From positions 1 through 20,073 of IMG/VR virus record IMGVR_UViG_3300047551_000657: a DNA stretch of 20,073 nt. The stretch is one strand, 5' to 3'. Each line of letters starts with the position of its first letter. The stretch's first letter is position 1. Below the pieces are notes generated by a model. It was given only the letters and a program-made list of their open reading frames with translations, made no database searches and was not told the origin of the DNA. This DNA is from a virus. Below are positions 3,175-16,181 of this stretch, piece by piece. The translations under genes were made by a program, and so were the position numbers.

Positions 3175-3735
3175 CTACTCCATGATAATGTAATCGCCTG
3201 ACTCTGTTGTCAATCGATCACCACTTTCTGTAATTAAGTAGTTAACCTGATCAAGCCATGCTTGTAAGTATGTAAACGGTGCTTTACGCCACTCTCCATT
3301 TTGTCTGATAACAAAGTAATCTGGTTGAGGAAACTCATTAGCGGTAGGTAAACCATCTAGACTAAAATTTTGTGTGTTTGAAACATAGATAGAATCAGAC
3401 TTTAATGGCTTTGTTGGTAATTCACCAGCACTGACCTCAATACCATTAGACAACTTAAGAATAAGTGAGTTGTCGATATCAATGTAAGCATCAACAACAG
3501 ATACACCATCCTTACCTGGTTTACCATCTATTCCATCCTTACCATCAACACCATCTCTACCATCTTTTCCTGGTAGCCCATCTTTACCAGGATTACCTTT
3601 GTCACCTTTAGGACCTTGTTTACCTTGTGGTCCTTCTAGTTTAATAATAGTGTCTGCTTTAGAGTCTAACTCACTTACTTTCTTCTTTAGCTTACCAACA
3701 ACAGCAGCGAGCTGTAGTAGCTTTTCCTCATCCAT
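3175..3735 (-). CDS. collagen-like fibre protein
   Basis: This 186-residue protein has three visible parts. Residues 1-34 are a charged heptad-like helix, likely a coiled-coil trimeriser. Residues 35-79 are about 15 uninterrupted Gly-X-Y triplets rich in GKD, GPQ and GNP, the collagen-like pattern. A mixed C-terminal region of about 105 residues follows. Collagen-like repeats occur in phage tail and head fibres and drive trimerisation. Placed directly after portal and before the tail fibre, it is probably a fibre stalk or connector. The start ATG 3735 is preceded by GGTGAG and lies two bases from the portal stop. The protein ends at a tandem-like pair of ITESGD / LTTESGD segments, a small internal duplication. 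Confidence 0.75.
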
Positions 3736-7451: not shown

Positions 7452-7472
7452 CACTACCTCTATATAGTTTCT

Positions 7473-7486
7473 CTGCCGGAAGGCAG
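7473..7486 (-). other. short GC-rich hairpin in the leftward leader
   Basis: The arms CTGCC and GGCAG are perfectly complementary with a 4-base loop, in an otherwise AT-rich stretch. The hairpin lies just upstream of the AGAGG ribosome site of the first leftward gene, so it would form in the 5' leader of the packaging-gene transcript. It might protect or process the message, or tune translation. No U-run follows, so it is not a terminator. Confidence 0.35.
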
Positions 7487-7604
7487 GACTGTAAGGTGTA
7501 TATAATTTTATGTATCTACAATGTAGTGTATGACGATAAGTTATATGTCTACTATTATTTAGTTTTTATACGATGTTTTGTTCATAGCCTACATAGAAGT
7601 ATCT

Positions 7605-7633
7605 ATTCTAGCATATTTTTAAGAGTTTGTCAA
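7605..7633 (-). promoter_or_regulatory. leftward sigma70-type promoter for the packaging/virion arm
   Basis: Read on the minus strand, TTGACA (7633-7628) is a perfect -35 box and TAGAAT (7610-7605) a five-of-six -10 box, with exactly 17 bases between. It faces the first leftward gene with a leader of about 150 bases. An inverted repeat TAGAA-7-TTCTA (7594-7610) overlaps the -10 box and may be an operator. Near-consensus quality implies use by the host RNA polymerase. Confidence 0.75.
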
Positions 7634-7714: not shown

Positions 7715-7886
7715 GCGGGACTCCATTAACATGGTATCTTAGGCTCCGCAGAGGCTTTATAGATAACCTATTGATTCTAAAGAGATTTCTTAATAGTAAT
7801 GCATTCTCATTAGCATTGTCTATTTTGCTCTTTTTTGTGGCTATAGTGGTGATACTACGCTAGAACAACATTGTTACCCCCCCCCT

Positions 7887-7999
7887 ATGCCGTTTGTCAG
7901 CGTAAAACTACCGTCTATCAGCTCAGTATCTATAGCGATGTCACTGATGAATGGCATAGTCTAACCGATGAACGGTAGAGTCTAGCTGACGAATGGTAC
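7887..7999. repeat. inverted array of five 14-bp sites with 21-bp period
   Basis: Five copies of a 14-base motif fit CTGAYRAAYGGYA. Two lie on the minus strand (7900-7887 CTGACAAACGGCAT; 7921-7908 CTGATAGACGGTAG). Three lie on the plus strand (7944-7957 CTGATGAATGGCAT; 7965-7978 CCGATGAACGGTAG; 7986-7999 CTGACGAATGGTAC). Start-to-start distance is exactly 21 in both arms, that is two helical turns, so bound proteins would sit on the same DNA face. The two arms diverge from a 22-base centre. This is typical of iterons, operator arrays or packaging-recognition sites. The bases between copies are not conserved, so it is not a simple tandem duplication. Confidence 0.75.
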
Positions 8000-8127: not shown

Positions 8128-8349
8128 ATGCTAGACTTCATCAAATCACTGATCCTCGTAAACAAGGTCAAAAAAACTACATCAACGCGCTTCGTGACAG
8201 CGTACAGCAAGCATGGCAGAATCAACGGCATCATCATGAAGCGTGGAATCATCAAAAGCGTAATTAGGGTTCCATACCGTGGCGACGTTACAGTCTACAA
8301 TACTAACATCGGGTTTATAAGACATGACAGGGTTACTAGCTTCAAGTAA
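8128..8349 (+). CDS. small basic early protein, unknown function
   Basis: This 73-residue basic protein has a hydrophobic N-terminus (LDFIKSLILV) and then an alternating beta-like sequence with many Lys and Arg (KKTT, KRGIIK, RVPYRG). AAGGG lies eight bases before ATG 8128, a good ribosome site. I do not recognise a family. As the first plausible gene downstream of the rightward control region it may be an early host-interaction or regulatory protein; this is inferred from position only. Overlapping open frames at 8007-8267 and on the other strand lack comparable start signals. Confidence 0.55.
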   Translation: MLDFIKSLILVNKVKKTTSTRFVTAYSKHGRINGIIMKRGIIKSVIRVPYRGDVTVYNTNIGFIRHDRVTSFK

Positions 8350-8360
8350 AGTATACAGTG

Positions 8361-8387
8361 TATAGTACCTTCGACGAGGGTACTATG
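8361..8387 (+). other. strong RNA hairpin between early genes
   Basis: ATAGTACC (8362-8369) and GGTACTAT (8379-8386) are perfect complements. Counting a wobble pair and two more pairs, the stem is 11 pairs with a GAC loop. It lies 12 bases after the stop of the first early gene and 20 before the ribosome site of the next. No run of U follows, so a simple intrinsic terminator is unlikely. An RNase III-type processing site or message-stabilising hairpin fits better. Confidence 0.5.
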
Positions 8388-8415
8388 CAAAGTAAACTTT
8401 ATAACGGAGCTTATG

Positions 8416-10480: not shown

Positions 10481-10678
10481 ATTAGATGCTTATCATGTAA
10501 TGAAGCCTTAAGTGACTACGAAGCCTCTAGGCGTAGTGTTCGAACACACCAGTACATTGACTTATGCAATGATTGTTTTCGCTATGTCCGAGATGATATC
10601 GCTGCAGTAGGTAATGTACGCTTAATCAATGAAGGAGATGATGACATTGTAAGCAAACGTAACATTGATGAAGATTGA
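10481..10678 (+). CDS. small zinc-binding phage protein with an apparent ATT start
   Basis: The frame reads (M)RCLSCNEALSDYEASRR..., 65 residues, with CLSC (C3, C6) and a later CNDC pair (C29, C32), a treble-clef or ribbon-like zinc site. I recall phage proteins of the same layout that begin M-x-CLSC, then L-SD-E-A, then DLCN-CF. In this frame the stop upstream is TAG 10469 and the only codons before RCLSC are GGA, CGG, AAG and ATT, so no ATG, GTG or TTG is available. ATT falls exactly where the Met of relatives should be, with a purine-rich AAAGGTAGGG stretch upstream. A sequencing error or decay of the start codon is the alternative. Function is unknown. Confidence 0.6.
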   Translation: MRCLSCNEALSDYEASRRSVRTHQYIDLCNDCFRYVRDDIAAVGNVRLINEGDDDIVSKRNIDED

Positions 10679-10679
10679 C

Positions 10680-10708
10680 TTGACAACTTTGTTTTTCTCT
10701 GATACCCT
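10680..10708 (+). promoter_or_regulatory. possible weak rightward promoter
   Basis: A perfect TTGACA (10680-10685) is followed after 17 bases by TACCCT (10703-10708), which matches the -10 consensus at only three positions. It faces the genes from 10822 onwards. An activator would be needed; the tandem 9-mers just downstream could be its sites or a repressor's. Confidence 0.3.
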
Positions 10709-10718
10709 AAATCTATAT

Positions 10719-10745
10719 AGGCTATGTAGGCTACTTAGGCTATGT
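10719..10745 (+). repeat. three tandem 9-mers AGGCTATGT / AGGCTACTT / AGGCTATGT
   Basis: Three contiguous 9-base units lie at 10719-10727, 10728-10736 and 10737-10745. The first and third are identical and the middle one differs at two positions. A fourth related copy (TTAGCCTATGTAC, 10798-10810) lies on the other side of the inverted repeat. The same core appears in the divergent control region (7583-7594 and 7704-7714). Confidence 0.55.
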
Positions 10746-10788
10746 ACTAAGTATATATTAAATATTATACATAGTATATACTTAGTAC
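10744..10788. repeat. 14-bp perfect inverted repeat in an AT-rich spacer
   Basis: GTACTAAGTATATA (10744-10757) and TATATACTTAGTAC (10775-10788) are perfect complements around a 17-base AT-only-like centre. Outer arms TAGGCTA (10736-10742) and TAGCCTA (10799-10805) are also complementary, so a nested hairpin or cruciform can form. Lying just before the replication genes in the most AT-rich stretch nearby, it is a candidate origin element or operator. As a transcript hairpin it is rich in A-U pairs and lacks a U-tail. Confidence 0.55.
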
Positions 10789-10821
10789 TTAGACTATTTA
10801 GCCTATGTACAGTAGGGCTTA

Positions 10822-11031
10822 ATGAAAGGATTGTTCGAAATGTATCCTGATGATGATTTTTTACCTGAAGAAGCCTTTGACTACACTAAAGGTGAATATG
10901 AAGATATGCACGAAGATCACAAAATCAATGATGTGTTAAATCGTTTTGTTCGCTTATGTCAAGAGTATGGTTTTTACTTCATGATGAGACAACTTACTAA
11001 GGCTTTGAACGCTAAAGGGTTCAACGTATGA
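10822..11031 (+). CDS. small acidic hypothetical protein
   Basis: This protein of 69 residues has a very acidic N-terminal half (YPDDDFLPEEAFDYTKGEYEDMHEDH) and a helical C-terminal half (INDVLNRFVRLCQEYGFYFMMRQLTKAL). ATG 10822 follows TAGGG by four bases. An alternative ATG 10840 has AGGA nine bases upstream, so either start is possible. No family is recognised. The acidic surface could mimic DNA or bind a basic protein, which is speculation. It is the first gene after the AT-rich control element, and it ends in an ATGA overlap with the next gene. Confidence 0.6.
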   Translation: MKGLFEMYPDDDFLPEEAFDYTKGEYEDMHEDHKINDVLNRFVRLCQEYGFYFMMRQLTKALNAKGFNV

Positions 11032-11315
11032 AAAAGCGTATACAGCCACGCAAGCGTAAGGTTAACCCCTACGTAGCCTACCTAGAGAATCATGGCCGCT
11101 ATGCTACCTTAGAAGACCTCCTAGAGGCATTCCCTAACAAGACCTCTAAGCAGATCAGAGACTCTATGTCTAAGTTAGTGGATAACTATACTGTTGATAG
11201 GGATATTAGGAAGGATGATCATCAATATTTGATATCCTATTCTCTTGGTGGATACAACACCAAGGACAACACTGGTATCTGTTGGCATAACCCTTTTAAT
11301 TTGAGGACAACATGA
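11028..11315 (+). CDS. basic protein, possible winged-helix DNA-binding
   Basis: This 95-residue protein begins with a strongly basic stretch (MKKRIQPRKRKV), then has a helix-turn-helix-like middle: ATLEDLLEAF (helix), SKQIRDSMSKLVDNYTVDRD (recognition-like helix) and a beta pair DHQYLISYSLGGY. That order fits a small winged helix but I cannot confirm it. AAAGGG lies eight bases before ATG 11028, which overlaps the preceding stop. It lies just after the AT-rich control element and before the replication genes, so a regulatory or origin-binding role is possible. It ends in an ATGA overlap with the next gene. Confidence 0.6.
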   Translation: MKKRIQPRKRKVNPYVAYLENHGRYATLEDLLEAFPNKTSKQIRDSMSKLVDNYTVDRDIRKDDHQYLISYSLGGYNTKDNTGICWHNPFNLRTT

Positions 11316-11677
11316 GCAGAGAAGCCATGCAGTTGGCGCTTGAGGCGTTGGAGAGTGACCCACTAAGTCATGCTGGGCTTGTTAGTAGAAAGCAAGCCAT
11401 CGCCGCACTACGCCAAGCACTGGAGACAAAGCAAGAGCCAGTTTTGTGGCTGAAAACTTGGTCTGATGGGTCTGTGTCTGTCCTAAAAACTAAGTCTCAT
11501 GCTTTTGCTGACCATGAATTAGAACCCATCTACACCGCACCACCAAAGAAAGAATGGGTTGGTCTGATGGATGAGGAATTTATGGCTATCGCACAAAAAT
11601 ACTCGTTAGCAACTCGTGTCGGTCTTGAGTATTTCAAAGACGAATTAGAAGCCAAGCTAAAGGAGAAGAATCAGTGA
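11312..11677 (+). CDS. conserved phage hypothetical (YTAPP-type protein)
   Basis: This 121-residue protein starts SREAMQLALEALE, has an AIAALRQALE helix, a middle strand region (VLWLKTWSDGSVSVL), an EPIYTAPP segment (72-79) and a WVGLMDEEF helix, then a charged tail. This arrangement (ALEALE... ALRQAL... YTAPP... WVGLTDEE) is one I recall from many phages and prophages, often of Betaproteobacteria, with no known function. GAGGA lies about four bases before ATG 11312. Its last bases overlap the GTG start of the primase-helicase. Confidence 0.65.
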   Translation: MSREAMQLALEALESDPLSHAGLVSRKQAIAALRQALETKQEPVLWLKTWSDGSVSVLKTKSHAFADHELEPIYTAPPKKEWVGLMDEEFMAIAQKYSLATRVGLEYFKDELEAKLKEKNQ

Positions 11678-13281
11678 ACTACTTAGCCACGCATGTTGGC
11701 TGTGATGATTGTGGATCTAGTGATGCATTGTCCGTATCTGTTAATGATAAAGGAGAGACTTGGTCACATTGTTTTGCTTGTGGTACGAATACTAAAATGT
11801 CGGAAGATGTTGATAATTTCAGACAAAAGCATACAAAGTCTGCTAAGGTGATTCCAATGTTAGATGGTAAGTATCAGTCTATACCGCTAAGAAACCTATC
11901 CAGAGATGCCTTAAAAGCCTTTGGAGTGATGATCACTGATGAGGGTGGTGTAGCTTTTCCCTACTGTGATGCTGATGGTAAGGTCACTGCATACAAGGTA
12001 AGACATGATGCAATGAAGACTGATTGCACCATCAAAGGTGATTGGTCTAAGGCTACTTTGTTCGGACAACATCTGTTCCCTAAAGGTGGTAAGAGCATTA
12101 CCATTACCGAAGGTGAATTTGATGCTGTTGCTGTGTATCAAATGAATGGTATGCGGTATCCAGTAGTAAGCATACGTAATGGCGCACAATCAGCAATTAA
12201 GGACTGTAAGGACAACTATGAATATCTTGACTCTTTTGAAACCATTGTTATCAGCTTTGATGCTGATGAAGTTGGTAAGCAGGCTGCTACGAAGGTAGCT
12301 GATCTATTCGGTGCTAAGGCTAAGGTAGTAAAGCACAGGCAACCACACAAGGATGCTAATGATTATCTCAAAGATGAGATGATCAAGGAGTATATCCAGG
12401 ACTGGTTTGCTGCTGAAGTCTATGTACCTGATGGGATCATCGAAGGATCAAAGCTTTGGGAAGAGATCAACACCCCCGCCATTAAAGCCTCTTGTGACTA
12501 TCCTTGGCAAGGTCTTAATGCTTTGACTTATGGTATCCGTAAAGGTGAGCTGGTGACGTTTACAGCAGGATCTGGACTGGGTAAATCACAGGTGCTTAGG
12601 GAGATTGTTTATCACATCTTATGTAAGACTGAGGACAACATTGGCTTGATGTTCCTGGAGGAGTCTACTGTTCGCACTGCCAAAGGTATCATGTCTATCC
12701 ATGCGAACAAGCCACTACATCTACCTGACACAGCGTACACTGATGAGGAGTTTAGAGATGCCTTCGAGCACACTCTTGGCACTAATAGGGTTTATCTTTT
12801 TGATCATTTTGGGAGTACATCAATTGACAACATACTATCAAGAGTCAGATTCATGGCTAAAGGACTCGGATGTAGCTTTGTTGTGTTGGATCATATTAGT
12901 ATTGTCGTCAGTTCTGGCGATGTTGGCGATGAACGTAAAGCATTAGATGAGATCATGACCAAGCTTAGGATGATTGTTCAGGAGACAGGCATAGCACTGT
13001 TGATTGTCAGCCATCTTAAGAGACCTGACGGTAAAGGCCATGAAGAAGGTGCAGCTACTTCACTAGGTCAACTTAGAGGATCTGGTAGCATTGCACAGTT
13101 GTCTGATATGGTGATCGGTATGGAAAGGAATGCACAGCATGATGATGAACGTGAACGCAATACCACCAGGATTAGGGTACTCAAGAACCGTTTCAGCGGT
13201 GTCACAGGTCCAGCCTGTAACGTCTATTACAGCCACTCAACAGGAAGGTTATCAGAGGTCACACAAGATGAAGACTTATGA
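11674..13281 (+). CDS. T7 gp4-type primase-helicase
   Basis: This 535-residue bifunctional enzyme should unwind DNA at the fork and make primers. The N-terminal zinc-binding site has C10, C13, C33 and C36. The TOPRIM primase core shows TEGEFD (145-150) and FDAD (195-198). The RecA-like helicase has Walker A GSGLGKS (299-305), Walker B FVVLDH (402-407), the sensor His in LLIVSH (H447), a QLRGSGSIAQLSD segment (467-478), and KNR with R506 as probable arginine finger. All motifs are intact. The GTG start overlaps the previous stop, and AGGAG lies eight bases before it. The length is close to T7 gp4A. The primase zinc domain is present, so it is not a helicase-only form. Confidence 0.93.
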   Translation: MNYLATHVGCDDCGSSDALSVSVNDKGETWSHCFACGTNTKMSEDVDNFRQKHTKSAKVIPMLDGKYQSIPLRNLSRDALKAFGVMITDEGGVAFPYCDADGKVTAYKVRHDAMKTDCTIKGDWSKATLFGQHLFPKGGKSITITEGEFDAVAVYQMNGMRYPVVSIRNGAQSAIKDCKDNYEYLDSFETIVISFDADEVGKQAATKVADLFGAKAKVVKHRQPHKDANDYLKDEMIKEYIQDWFAAEVYVPDGIIEGSKLWEEINTPAIKASCDYPWQGLNALTYGIRKGELVTFTAGSGLGKSQVLREIVYHILCKTEDNIGLMFLEESTVRTAKGIMSIHANKPLHLPDTAYTDEEFRDAFEHTLGTNRVYLFDHFGSTSIDNILSRVRFMAKGLGCSFVVLDHISIVVSSGDVGDERKALDEIMTKLRMIVQETGIALLIVSHLKRPDGKGHEEGAATSLGQLRGSGSIAQLSDMVIGMERNAQHDDERERNTTRIRVLKNRFSGVTGPACNVYYSHSTGRLSEVTQDEDL

Positions 13282-13792: not shown

Positions 13793-13971
13793 TGTGGGTA
13801 ATGGATAGGCTGTTAGCTGACCACGCAGAGCTAAAGAAGAAATATGATACACTGCTAGAAGACTATCAGAAACTGGTACATAAATATGAAGAGCTTAGTG
13901 CTGGACATCGAAACAGACATGAAGCAGACTGTTATCTTCTGCGTAGTCACGAAGGATCTGACAACAAGTGA
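13792..13971 (+). CDS. small coiled-coil protein overlapping the polymerase gene
   Basis: This 59-residue frame has a clear heptad helix (RLLADHAELKKKYDTLLEDYQKLV) followed by a polar tail. GGAG lies seven bases before ATG 13792, which overlaps the previous stop (TAATG). It shares its last 86 bases with the start of the DNA polymerase gene in another frame. The good ribosome site here and the lack of one at the polymerase start suggest that ribosomes translating this frame help initiate polymerase synthesis. Its own function is unknown. Confidence 0.5.
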   Translation: MWVMDRLLADHAELKKKYDTLLEDYQKLVHKYEELSAGHRNRHEADCYLLRSHEGSDNK

Positions 13972-15526
13972 GGTGGTATGTCATACTCATCCAAATACAC
14001 TAAAGCCTCTTATAGAGGATTACGACACAGTGATCGGACACAATCTAATCAGCTTCGACGGTTACCACCTTCGGAGATTGTGGAACATTACGATACCACT
14101 CAAGAAGGCCTCCGATACGCTCGTGCTGTCGAGGCTATGGAATCCCAGTATCGAAGGAGGTCACAGTCTAGAAGCATGGGGGAAAAGATTAGGGAATCAC
14201 AAGATTGAGTTCCAAGACTTTACTGCTTTGACACAAGAGATGATTGATTACTGTATCCAAGATGTTAATCTTACTGGTGAACTTCATCGCAAACTATGCA
14301 CAGAATTGAAGGACTTCTCACAGCAAAGCATTGACATTGAACACAAGGTACAGTTCATTGTTGCACAGCAGGAAAGACATGGATTCAAACTAGACATACC
14401 CTTATGTACTGAGTTTATCTCTCAGTTAACTACGAAGTTATCAGCCATTGAAGAGAATCTACAGACTATATTCCCACCGATCATCACTGAACGTGTTAGT
14501 GAAAAGACAGGTAAGAAGCTAAAGGATCATGTTGAAGTGTTTAACCCAGGCTCTAGAGATCAGATAGGACGTAGACTGACATCATTAGGATGGAAGCCTG
14601 AGAAGTTCACTGAGACAGGTAAACCAATGGTTGATGAAGTGATACTGTCTAAGCTAACCTATCCAGAGGCTAAGGCAATGGCTGAGTATCTACTTATCCA
14701 GAAACGTATAGCACAGTCTACATCGTGGCTAGAGCACGTTGCTGATGATGGTAGGGTACATGGTAAGGTAATCACCAACGGTGCTGTCACAGGGCGTATG
14801 ACGCACCACAGCCCTAACATGGCACAGGTTCCTGCTGTCAATGCTGAGTATGGTGAAACATGCAGACAAGTATGGACTGTAGATCCTGGTAATGTCTTAG
14901 TTGGTTGTGATGCTTCAGGGTTAGAACTACGTATGTTAGCTCATTACATGAAAGATGATGAGTACACTAAGGAGGTGATCAATGGGGATGTCCACACTAA
15001 AAACCAACTCGCTGCTGGTCTTGAGAGTAGGGCGCAAGCAAAGACGTTTATCTATGCCTTTCTCTATGGAGCAGGGCCAGCTAAGATTGGATCGATTGCT
15101 CAAGGGAGCGCCGAGGAAGGAAAGAAACTCATCACCCGTTTCCTTAAGAATACGCCAGCTCTCAAGACACTTAAAGATAAAGTTAGCAGGTATGCAGAGA
15201 AAGGGTATTTACCTGCCCTTGACGGTCGTCGATTATGGGTACGGTCGGAACACGCAGCACTTAACACGTTACTTCAAGGAGCTGGTGCGATCTCGATGAA
15301 GCAAGGTCTGATCCACCTACATGAGTCACTGAAGAAACACAAGATACCTGCACACTTTGTGGCTAACGTCCATGATGAATGGCAGATAGAATGTCCTAAG
15401 CAGTACGCTGATGATGTTGGTAAACTCGCTGTAGCAGCTATTGAGAAGGCTGGTGTTACCTTGGGTTTACGTTGTCCTCTAACGGGTGAATACAAAGTAG
15501 GAAACAACTGGAAGGAAACACACTGA
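13886..15526 (+). CDS. family A DNA polymerase (T7-like) with 3'-5' exonuclease
   Basis: This 546-residue replicative polymerase has both domains. Exonuclease: D7 and E9 (LVLDIE), HNLISFD (52-58), and YCIQD (122-126). Polymerase: motif A DASGLELRMLAHY with D342; motif B R382-x3-K386-x3-Y390-x3-Y394; motif C VHDE with H496-D498. Residue Y390 aligns with E. coli Pol I F762, as in T7. It is about 160 residues shorter than T7 gp5 (704), and I see no room for a large thioredoxin-binding insertion in the thumb (180-225). ATG 13886 is the only start after TAG 13856. It has no ribosome site and lies inside the preceding coiled-coil gene. It should copy the phage genome with the helicase-primase and SSB encoded nearby. 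Confidence 0.95.
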   Translation: MKSLVLDIETDMKQTVIFCVVTKDLTTSEVVCHTHPNTLKPLIEDYDTVIGHNLISFDGYHLRRLWNITIPLKKASDTLVLSRLWNPSIEGGHSLEAWGKRLGNHKIEFQDFTALTQEMIDYCIQDVNLTGELHRKLCTELKDFSQQSIDIEHKVQFIVAQQERHGFKLDIPLCTEFISQLTTKLSAIEENLQTIFPPIITERVSEKTGKKLKDHVEVFNPGSRDQIGRRLTSLGWKPEKFTETGKPMVDEVILSKLTYPEAKAMAEYLLIQKRIAQSTSWLEHVADDGRVHGKVITNGAVTGRMTHHSPNMAQVPAVNAEYGETCRQVWTVDPGNVLVGCDASGLELRMLAHYMKDDEYTKEVINGDVHTKNQLAAGLESRAQAKTFIYAFLYGAGPAKIGSIAQGSAEEGKKLITRFLKNTPALKTLKDKVSRYAEKGYLPALDGRRLWVRSEHAALNTLLQGAGAISMKQGLIHLHESLKKHKIPAHFVANVHDEWQIECPKQYADDVGKLAVAAIEKAGVTLGLRCPLTGEYKVGNNWKETH

Positions 15527-15741
15527 TGATTACCAACTTTGATGAGATTGATTCTCTTGTCGTAACTATTAAGATAGGAAAGGATGATGCTGGTTATGTA
15601 ACGATGGATGTTCAGAGTGATAAGTTAGTATCAAACCGTATGATGTTGGCGTTGCTACACTCTATTGCTGAATCAGCTACAGAATCAATGATGGCTGAGA
15701 TACAAAGTAGAGTATTGCTTGACAAATTTAAGATGAACTGA
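15526..15741 (+). CDS. small hypothetical protein
   Basis: This 71-residue protein has a beta-like N-terminal half (FDEIDSLVVTIKIGKDDAGYVTMDVQ) and a helical C-terminal half (MMLALLHSIAESATESMMAEIQSRVLLDKF). ATG 15526 overlaps the polymerase stop (TGATG), and AAGGA lies nine bases upstream. No family is recognised. Its end carries the -35 box of the candidate promoter for the SSB gene. A helper role in replication is suggested by position only. Confidence 0.6.
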   Translation: MITNFDEIDSLVVTIKIGKDDAGYVTMDVQSDKLVSNRMMLALLHSIAESATESMMAEIQSRVLLDKFKMN

Positions 15742-15747
15742 TACACT
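15719..15747 (+). promoter_or_regulatory. sigma70-type promoter for the SSB gene
   Basis: TTGACA (15719-15724) is a perfect -35 box; TACACT (15742-15747) matches the -10 consensus at four of six positions, with exactly 17 bases between. It lies at the end of the previous gene, about 30 bases before the SSB start, in one of the few gaps of the replication region. Separate, stronger SSB expression would fit the high copy need of this protein. Confidence 0.55.
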
Positions 15748-15776: not shown

Positions 15777-16181
15777 ATGGAACAAAAACCTGTACGTATT
15801 GAAGCAACCTTGATGTGGCCTTTCCTTGATAAGCCTAACGATATGTCTGGTAAGTATCAAGTAGATCTGACTAACCTGTCAGACAAGGCTGTTAAGGCTT
15901 TGGAAGATATGGGTATCTCTGTTCGCAACAAAGAAGGTAAAGGCTTTTACATTACCGCTAAGAGTAACCATGAGATCAAAGCATTAGATAAGAATGGTGA
16001 ACAAGTGTTAGCACATATCGGTAACGGTACAAAGGCTGTCTGTGTCATGGGTTCATACTCATGGACCTTTAAGAACAAGAAAGGTGTATCACCTTCACTG
16101 AAGAAGCTAGTGATCACTGACTTGGTTACTTACAGTGCACAGCCTAAGCAAGACGAAGAAGAAACAGAAGACGTACTGTAA
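15777..16181 (+). CDS. single-stranded DNA-binding protein (T7 gp2.5-like)
   Basis: This 134-residue protein should coat single-stranded DNA during replication and recombination. It matches phage SSBs as I know them: MWPFLDKPND near the start, SGKYQVDLTNLSDKAVKALE, GFYITAKSNHEIKA, a GNGTKAVCVMGSYSWTFKNK strand pair, LKKLVITDLV, and a strongly acidic C-terminal tail (QDEEETEDVL) that in gp2.5 and bacterial SSBs recruits partner proteins. AGGAA lies seven bases before ATG 15777, and a promoter lies upstream. It is shorter than T7 gp2.5 (232). Its stop overlaps the exonuclease start (TAATG). Confidence 0.8.
   Translation: MEQKPVRIEATLMWPFLDKPNDMSGKYQVDLTNLSDKAVKALEDMGISVRNKEGKGFYITAKSNHEIKALDKNGEQVLAHIGNGTKAVCVMGSYSWTFKNKKGVSPSLKKLVITDLVTYSAQPKQDEEETEDVL

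Follow-up and report, generated by a model that had tools for sequence, protein, structure and literature searches.

In the phage genome fragment analysed here, the element between the small CxxC gene and the replication genes is, judged by its conservation in relatives, a real and well-delimited regulatory leader of an ordinary kind. It is best explained as a promoter together with a transcribed 5' hairpin leader of the replication operon, most likely working as RNA, e.g. in protection of the 5' end; the probability of this reading is put at about one half.

The window, i.e. the whole stretch of DNA analysed, is a phage genome fragment of 20,073 bases, taken from a virus record. Structural and packaging genes occupy the minus strand of its left third, and replication genes (primase-helicase, family A DNA polymerase and exonuclease) the plus strand of its right half. 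The best GenBank relatives of the primase-helicase are from pelagiphages, e.g. HTVC115P (52% identity), followed by SIO1-like and other roseophages. For comparison, 80 IMG/VR loci were gathered by a search with the primase-helicase, and more were added by scans with the proteins of three relatives. The element is common to two clades of these relatives, with flanks ~90-95% identical to the window in its own clade (clade 1) and ~73% identical in clade 2. No T7-type RNA polymerase gene (PF00940) was found in 15 relatives by a search that detected the positive control CRP-361, and the host polymerase is therefore expected to transcribe these phage genes.

Promoter and palindrome ahead of the replication operon

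The features of the region are as follows, all on the plus strand.

10481-10678: gene for a small CxxC...CxxC protein, always upstream of the promoter across the family
10680-10685: -35 box TTGACA, from the sequence; invariant in clades 1 and 2
10700-10708: extended -10, TGaTACCCT, 17-nt spacer from the -35; conserved in clades 1 and 2
10713-10726: 14-mer CTATATAGGCTATG, from about +1, with a near-copy at the late promoter
10715: A, predicted transcription start (+1), placed from the -10 position; the clade-2 stem begins at the same base
10715-10724 with 10799-10808: outer stem, which begins at the predicted +1; paired without exception in 15 distinct leaders
10718-10745: three tandem 9-nt units, AGGCTATGT/AGGCTACTT/AGGCTATGT at 10719-10745, also read as TAGGCTATG/TAGGCTACT/TAGGCTATG
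10727-10805: 79-nt quasi-palindrome, the putative transcribed hairpin; arms of 39 nt, 82% complementary, flank a single central base
10736-10742 and 10799-10805: TAGGCTA and TAGCCTA
10744-10788: 45-nt core, present as its exact reverse complement in 14 relatives
10744-10757 and 10775-10788: 14-nt perfect arms, GTACTAAGTATATA and TATATACTTAGTAC
10825-10830: Shine-Dalgarno AAAGGA, from the sequence; conserved
10840-11031: first operon gene, small acidic protein; ATG 10840 conserved
11028-11315: gene for a small basic protein, helix-turn-helix-like by eye, without family match
11674-13281: primase-helicase (Toprim and DnaB_C)
13886-15526: family A DNA polymerase

The arrangement TTGACA-N17-TGaTACCCT agrees with the sigma70 extended -10 pattern (TTGACA-like -35, 17+/-1 spacer, TGnTAnnnT). 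The -10 hexamer is weak, matching at just 3 of 6 positions, and for this reason a simple promoter scan misses the site. From the -35 to about +14, taking in the first ~14-20 transcribed bases, clades 1 and 2 are almost identical despite ~73% flank identity, and the promoter with the 14-mer site at the start is the most conserved part of the element. The TTCTCTGATACCCT of the -10 region is also present in the distant locus L077/L140. Family-wide, a promoter stands upstream of the replication operon, between the small CxxC gene and the small acidic gene, and is followed by leaders of unrelated sequence. A preliminary description of this DNA had favoured an origin of replication and named a promoter as the alternative; that alternative is well supported by the near invariance of TTGACA-N17-extended -10 across two clades and by its family-wide place before the operon. 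A further promoter-like TTGACA-N17-TGATACACT occurs at 15719-15747 of the window, 30 bases before the gene at 15777, and the same pattern found no such site in the relatives scanned.

ATG 10840 is the conserved start of the first gene, an ATG at 10822 being lost in most relatives. The small ORFs downstream of the element belong to no Pfam or PHROG family. The CxxC gene apparently starts with ATT (10481-10483), a start read so because of an in-frame stop just upstream; AAAGGTAGGGACGGAAG-ATT-AGATG is kept there in L009, L031 and clade-2 L051, and other relatives have ATG. Elsewhere in these genomes, an insertion of ~0.65 kb follows the primase gene in L034 (7602-8264), L053 (2855-3545) and L054 (7602-8292); it carries an HNH-like reading frame and a duplicated primase C-terminus and looks like a homing endonuclease insertion. 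A tail-region protein of the window (3175-3735, minus strand) contains collagen-like GxY repeats.

The 9-mers, 14-nt arms, TAGGCTA/TAGCCTA heptamers and TTGACA box of the preliminary description all lie where it placed them. Its nested repeats are all real, and as a whole they make up one larger quasi-palindrome directly downstream of the promoter. The pairing it gave to the two heptamers is revised: TAGCCTA concentrically faces the second 9-mer (10727-10733) and not TAGGCTA, and the covariation seen in relatives points instead to the first 9-mer copy (10718-10724) as its partner. The inverted-repeat score is 19. The highest value among 300 dinucleotide shuffles of the 500-nt region was 11, and of 1000 shuffles confined to the AT-rich 120 nt a single one reached 19; the repeats are unlikely to be due to chance. 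The quasi-palindrome is the best inverted repeat of the window and its top folding outlier on both strands, and the leader as RNA has a predicted fold of -41.6 kcal/mol (z -4.6). A second quasi-palindrome, at 8347-8401 of the window (27-nt arms, 81%, 1 nt between), lies just upstream of the ribosome-binding site of a GP88-like gene at 8413 and is present in clade-1 L009, L012, L013 and L014.

Conservation and inversion of the hairpin in relatives

Conservation of the promoter, conservation of the hairpin, pair-preserving changes and inversion of the core all emerge directly from comparison of the sequences. In all 15 distinct clade-1 leaders the 10 pairs of the outer stem are kept, and solely pair-preserving changes occur: L066 has C-G in place of U-A, with both sides changed, four rows have G-U in place of G-C, and one row has U-G in place of C-G. 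The covariation score of this stem was reached by 6 of 500 shuffles, which is weaker evidence than usual here because template switching yields compensatory changes without selection. The one-sided changes give G-U on the plus strand, not A-C, which favours an RNA form. Over single mismatches in the whole of clade 1 there is no excess of G-U over A-C; the full concentric register, with the second 9-mer, shows no covariation above shuffles; and over 26 leader clusters the plus strand is not significantly more structured than the minus strand (Wilcoxon p 0.14).

Hairpins of different sequence occupy the same place in other lineages. Clade 2 has a different hairpin, whose 17-bp stem starts exactly at the predicted +1 and closes two inner hairpins; the tandem 9-mers are absent there, though promoter and hairpin are kept. 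Within clade 1 a fourth 9-mer unit has been gained in L009 and L014. The distant L069 group has another, shorter hairpin with compensatory U-A/A-U changes (93% paired, 6/500 shuffles), and the L233 leader forms a hairpin of ~26 bp with the best z among the clusters (-7.5). In total, 12 of the 26 leader clusters fold with z below -2 against shuffles and 14 lack a significant hairpin; the L186/L191 group (~20 leaders) has no stable one (z about 0 to +1). No comparable leader palindrome was found in the annotated phages HTVC115P, HTVC104P, SIO1, P12053L, CRP-361 and MW202701; in HTVC115P, whose genome is very AT-rich, a -10 is followed by an AT palindrome of 20 nt. A GenBank phage nucleotide search gave chance AT-rich matches only. 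Rfam gave no family at gathering score, and at a permissive threshold weak, chance-like microRNA matches only.

Some of the 14 relatives with an inverted core are 94-97% identical to the window in their flanks. L034 has its core in the same orientation as the window, yet well-supported branches of the flank tree separate the two, and the cores of L019 and L023 also have the orientation of the window. The 5' arms of L034 and L056 have been converted to the exact complement of parts of the 3' arm. Template switching in hairpins leaves loop inversion and arm correction (PMC8794818), and as both patterns are matched here, the core appears to carry the signature of inversion by template switching, in an unusually clear record. 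The template-switched RNA hairpins of that study likewise combine an inverted loop, arm correction and compensatory changes; they differ in size, the inverted core being 45 nt here (with a 17-nt loop) and the reported rRNA loop inversions mostly 4 nt and at most 7-8 nt. Recombination swapping a short segment between lineages could replace some of the repeated inversions.

A leader of the following kind would account for these data. Host RNA polymerase with a sigma70-type factor would start at about 10715, and the first ~95 nt of the RNA would form a long hairpin, the outer stem of which starts with the 5' nucleotide or right beside it, with the ribosome-binding site (10825) and first gene (10840) following the hairpin unpaired. 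Its most likely job would be in cis, in the RNA, the paired 5' end shielding the operon mRNA from 5'-end-dependent decay; the hairpin would also keep the leader clear of the ribosome-binding site. Polymerase template switching within the palindrome would keep renewing the arms and flipping the core, which would explain fast change of sequence with constant form. The start site, RNA rather than DNA as the working form, and the stabilising function are parts of this model that we infer.

As summarized in PMC3997798, which cites Emory 1992 and Bouvet 1992, E. coli mRNA is stabilised by 5'-terminal stem-loops. Such stabilisers have a stem that begins only a few nt from the 5' end, and so, counted from the predicted +1, does the fully (100%) paired outer stem. 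The ompA and papA leaders, as that source presents them, likewise belong to sigma70 transcripts whose 5' end lies in or beside a stem, with an unpaired ribosome-binding site downstream; compared with them, the present element is much longer, AU-rich, situated in a phage replication operon and invertible in its core, and its stabilising effect is a prediction.

Alternative readings of the element

The strongest rival is a DNA operator, which seems possible but on the whole unlikely: a phage regulator would bind CTATRTAGGCTATG/TAGNCTA at the transcription starts of two promoters, the replication promoter and the late leftward one, with tandem and inverted copies giving cooperative binding or looping. 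What makes it the main rival is a stretch of 14 bases found again at the late promoter in the clade of the window, where the following features lie.

7605-7633, minus strand: late leftward promoter TTGACA-N17-TAGAAT with extended -10, conserved in both clades
7583-7596, minus strand: CTATGTAGGCTATG, the near-copy of the 14-mer, just after the late promoter

Across whole clade-1 contigs (38-42 kb), matches to the 14-mer CTATRTAGGCTATG allowing up to one mismatch are confined to the element and the late promoter, lying at about +1 in each case. Clade 2 carries two inverted exact 14-mer copies in its hairpin arms, the high conservation of promoter and 14-mer site noted above fits an operator as well, and even the L186/L191 group has palindromes (CTACTTAGTAG and ACTATATAGT) after its promoter. 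However, the late-promoter copy is missing in clade 2, where it is reduced to CTATGTAG, the sites are not common to the L069 group, and no regulator gene was identified. C-to-T changes at column 89, in the 3' arm, break the DNA symmetry yet keep an RNA G-U pair. The operator and RNA-leader readings may hold together. The late leader itself (7454-7605 of the window, minus strand) has a TATGTAG near +3 that can pair with an invariant CTACAT ~75-80 nt downstream; this outer helix is invariant in both clades, the intervening sequence differs, and folding is weak (z about -1).

It is improbable that the leader is a nascent-RNA element acting on RNA polymerase, as does HK022 put, or a site cut by RNase III, as in T7 early mRNA. 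The position directly after an early-type promoter, the long duplex and the clade-2 form, an outer stem with two inner hairpins, would suit either. The putL antiterminator RNA of HK022 is likewise structured and encoded just behind an early phage promoter that host polymerase uses, but it consists of two conserved stem-loops (PMC9378689), whereas clade 1 has one long hairpin, in which the loop and inner-stem sequences are not conserved and even invert. The lack of an Rfam family at gathering score also speaks against this reading.

A hairpin without function, in which the promoter alone is selected and self-correcting template switching keeps the palindrome, is quite doubtful. The repeated template-switch footprints in the arms (L034 and L056) and core, and the 14 clusters without significant hairpin, are what it would lead one to expect; it does not sit well with the fact that several lineages have independent hairpins, unrelated to one another, in the same syntenic position, or with an outer stem starting at +1 in both clades.

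The origin of replication first proposed, in which the 9-mers would serve as initiator sites or the promoter would prime synthesis and the AT-rich stretch would melt, is very improbable, since the cumulative GC-skew minimum lies elsewhere, clade 2 lacks the 9-mers and the hairpin itself is flipped and rebuilt from one relative to another. That minimum falls 1.8-3.9 kb upstream of the element, in the divergent intergenic region, both in the window and in seven near-complete relatives; three of these relatives show end overlaps of 127 nt, as is typical of circular or permuted assemblies. Because skew follows gene orientation here, its minimum is a weak argument against an origin near the element. 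The preliminary description had said that skew placing the origin elsewhere, with no conservation in relatives, would count against it; the skew does point elsewhere, but the element is conserved as promoter and hairpin, so that only half of this holds. In its favour, the element is AT-rich, single-copy per genome, conserved and upstream of primase-helicase and polymerase, positive skew turns steep right after it in the window, and the template-switch history of the palindrome shows polymerase stalling or switching there. Conserved tandem direct repeats, as in iteron-type origins, are wanting. The primary origin of T7, a phage with a T7-type primase-helicase and polymerase, resembles the element in having a promoter and an AT-rich stretch; the element differs in its host-type promoter, in the skew and in that no phage RNA polymerase gene, which with its own promoter defines the T7 type, was found in the 15 relatives.

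The 21-nt tandem repeats at 7943-7998 (2.7 copies) were considered as alternative origin iterons and rejected because in relatives they encode a repeated peptide motif (TDERHSL-like); the repeat contains an in-frame TAG in both L012 and the window. A run of C in the divergent region (7876-7885 of the window) varies in length and interruption between relatives.

Meaning for the phage family

A hairpin form that persists through sequence change, and even through inversion, is more in keeping with an RNA leader than with an origin. A testable promoter-leader model can replace the origin guess for a large group of uncultured T7-like podoviruses, which seem to rely on host RNA polymerase. It is a long shot, though conceivable, that structured leaders are family-wide in these host-polymerase-dependent phages, with cores that template switching keeps inverting and both orientations coexisting in nature, and that they may tune expression of the replication operon. 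The element would provide a natural case, in dozens of close relatives, of a 45-nt hairpin core inverted by template switching, an inversion reported elsewhere for short loops only.
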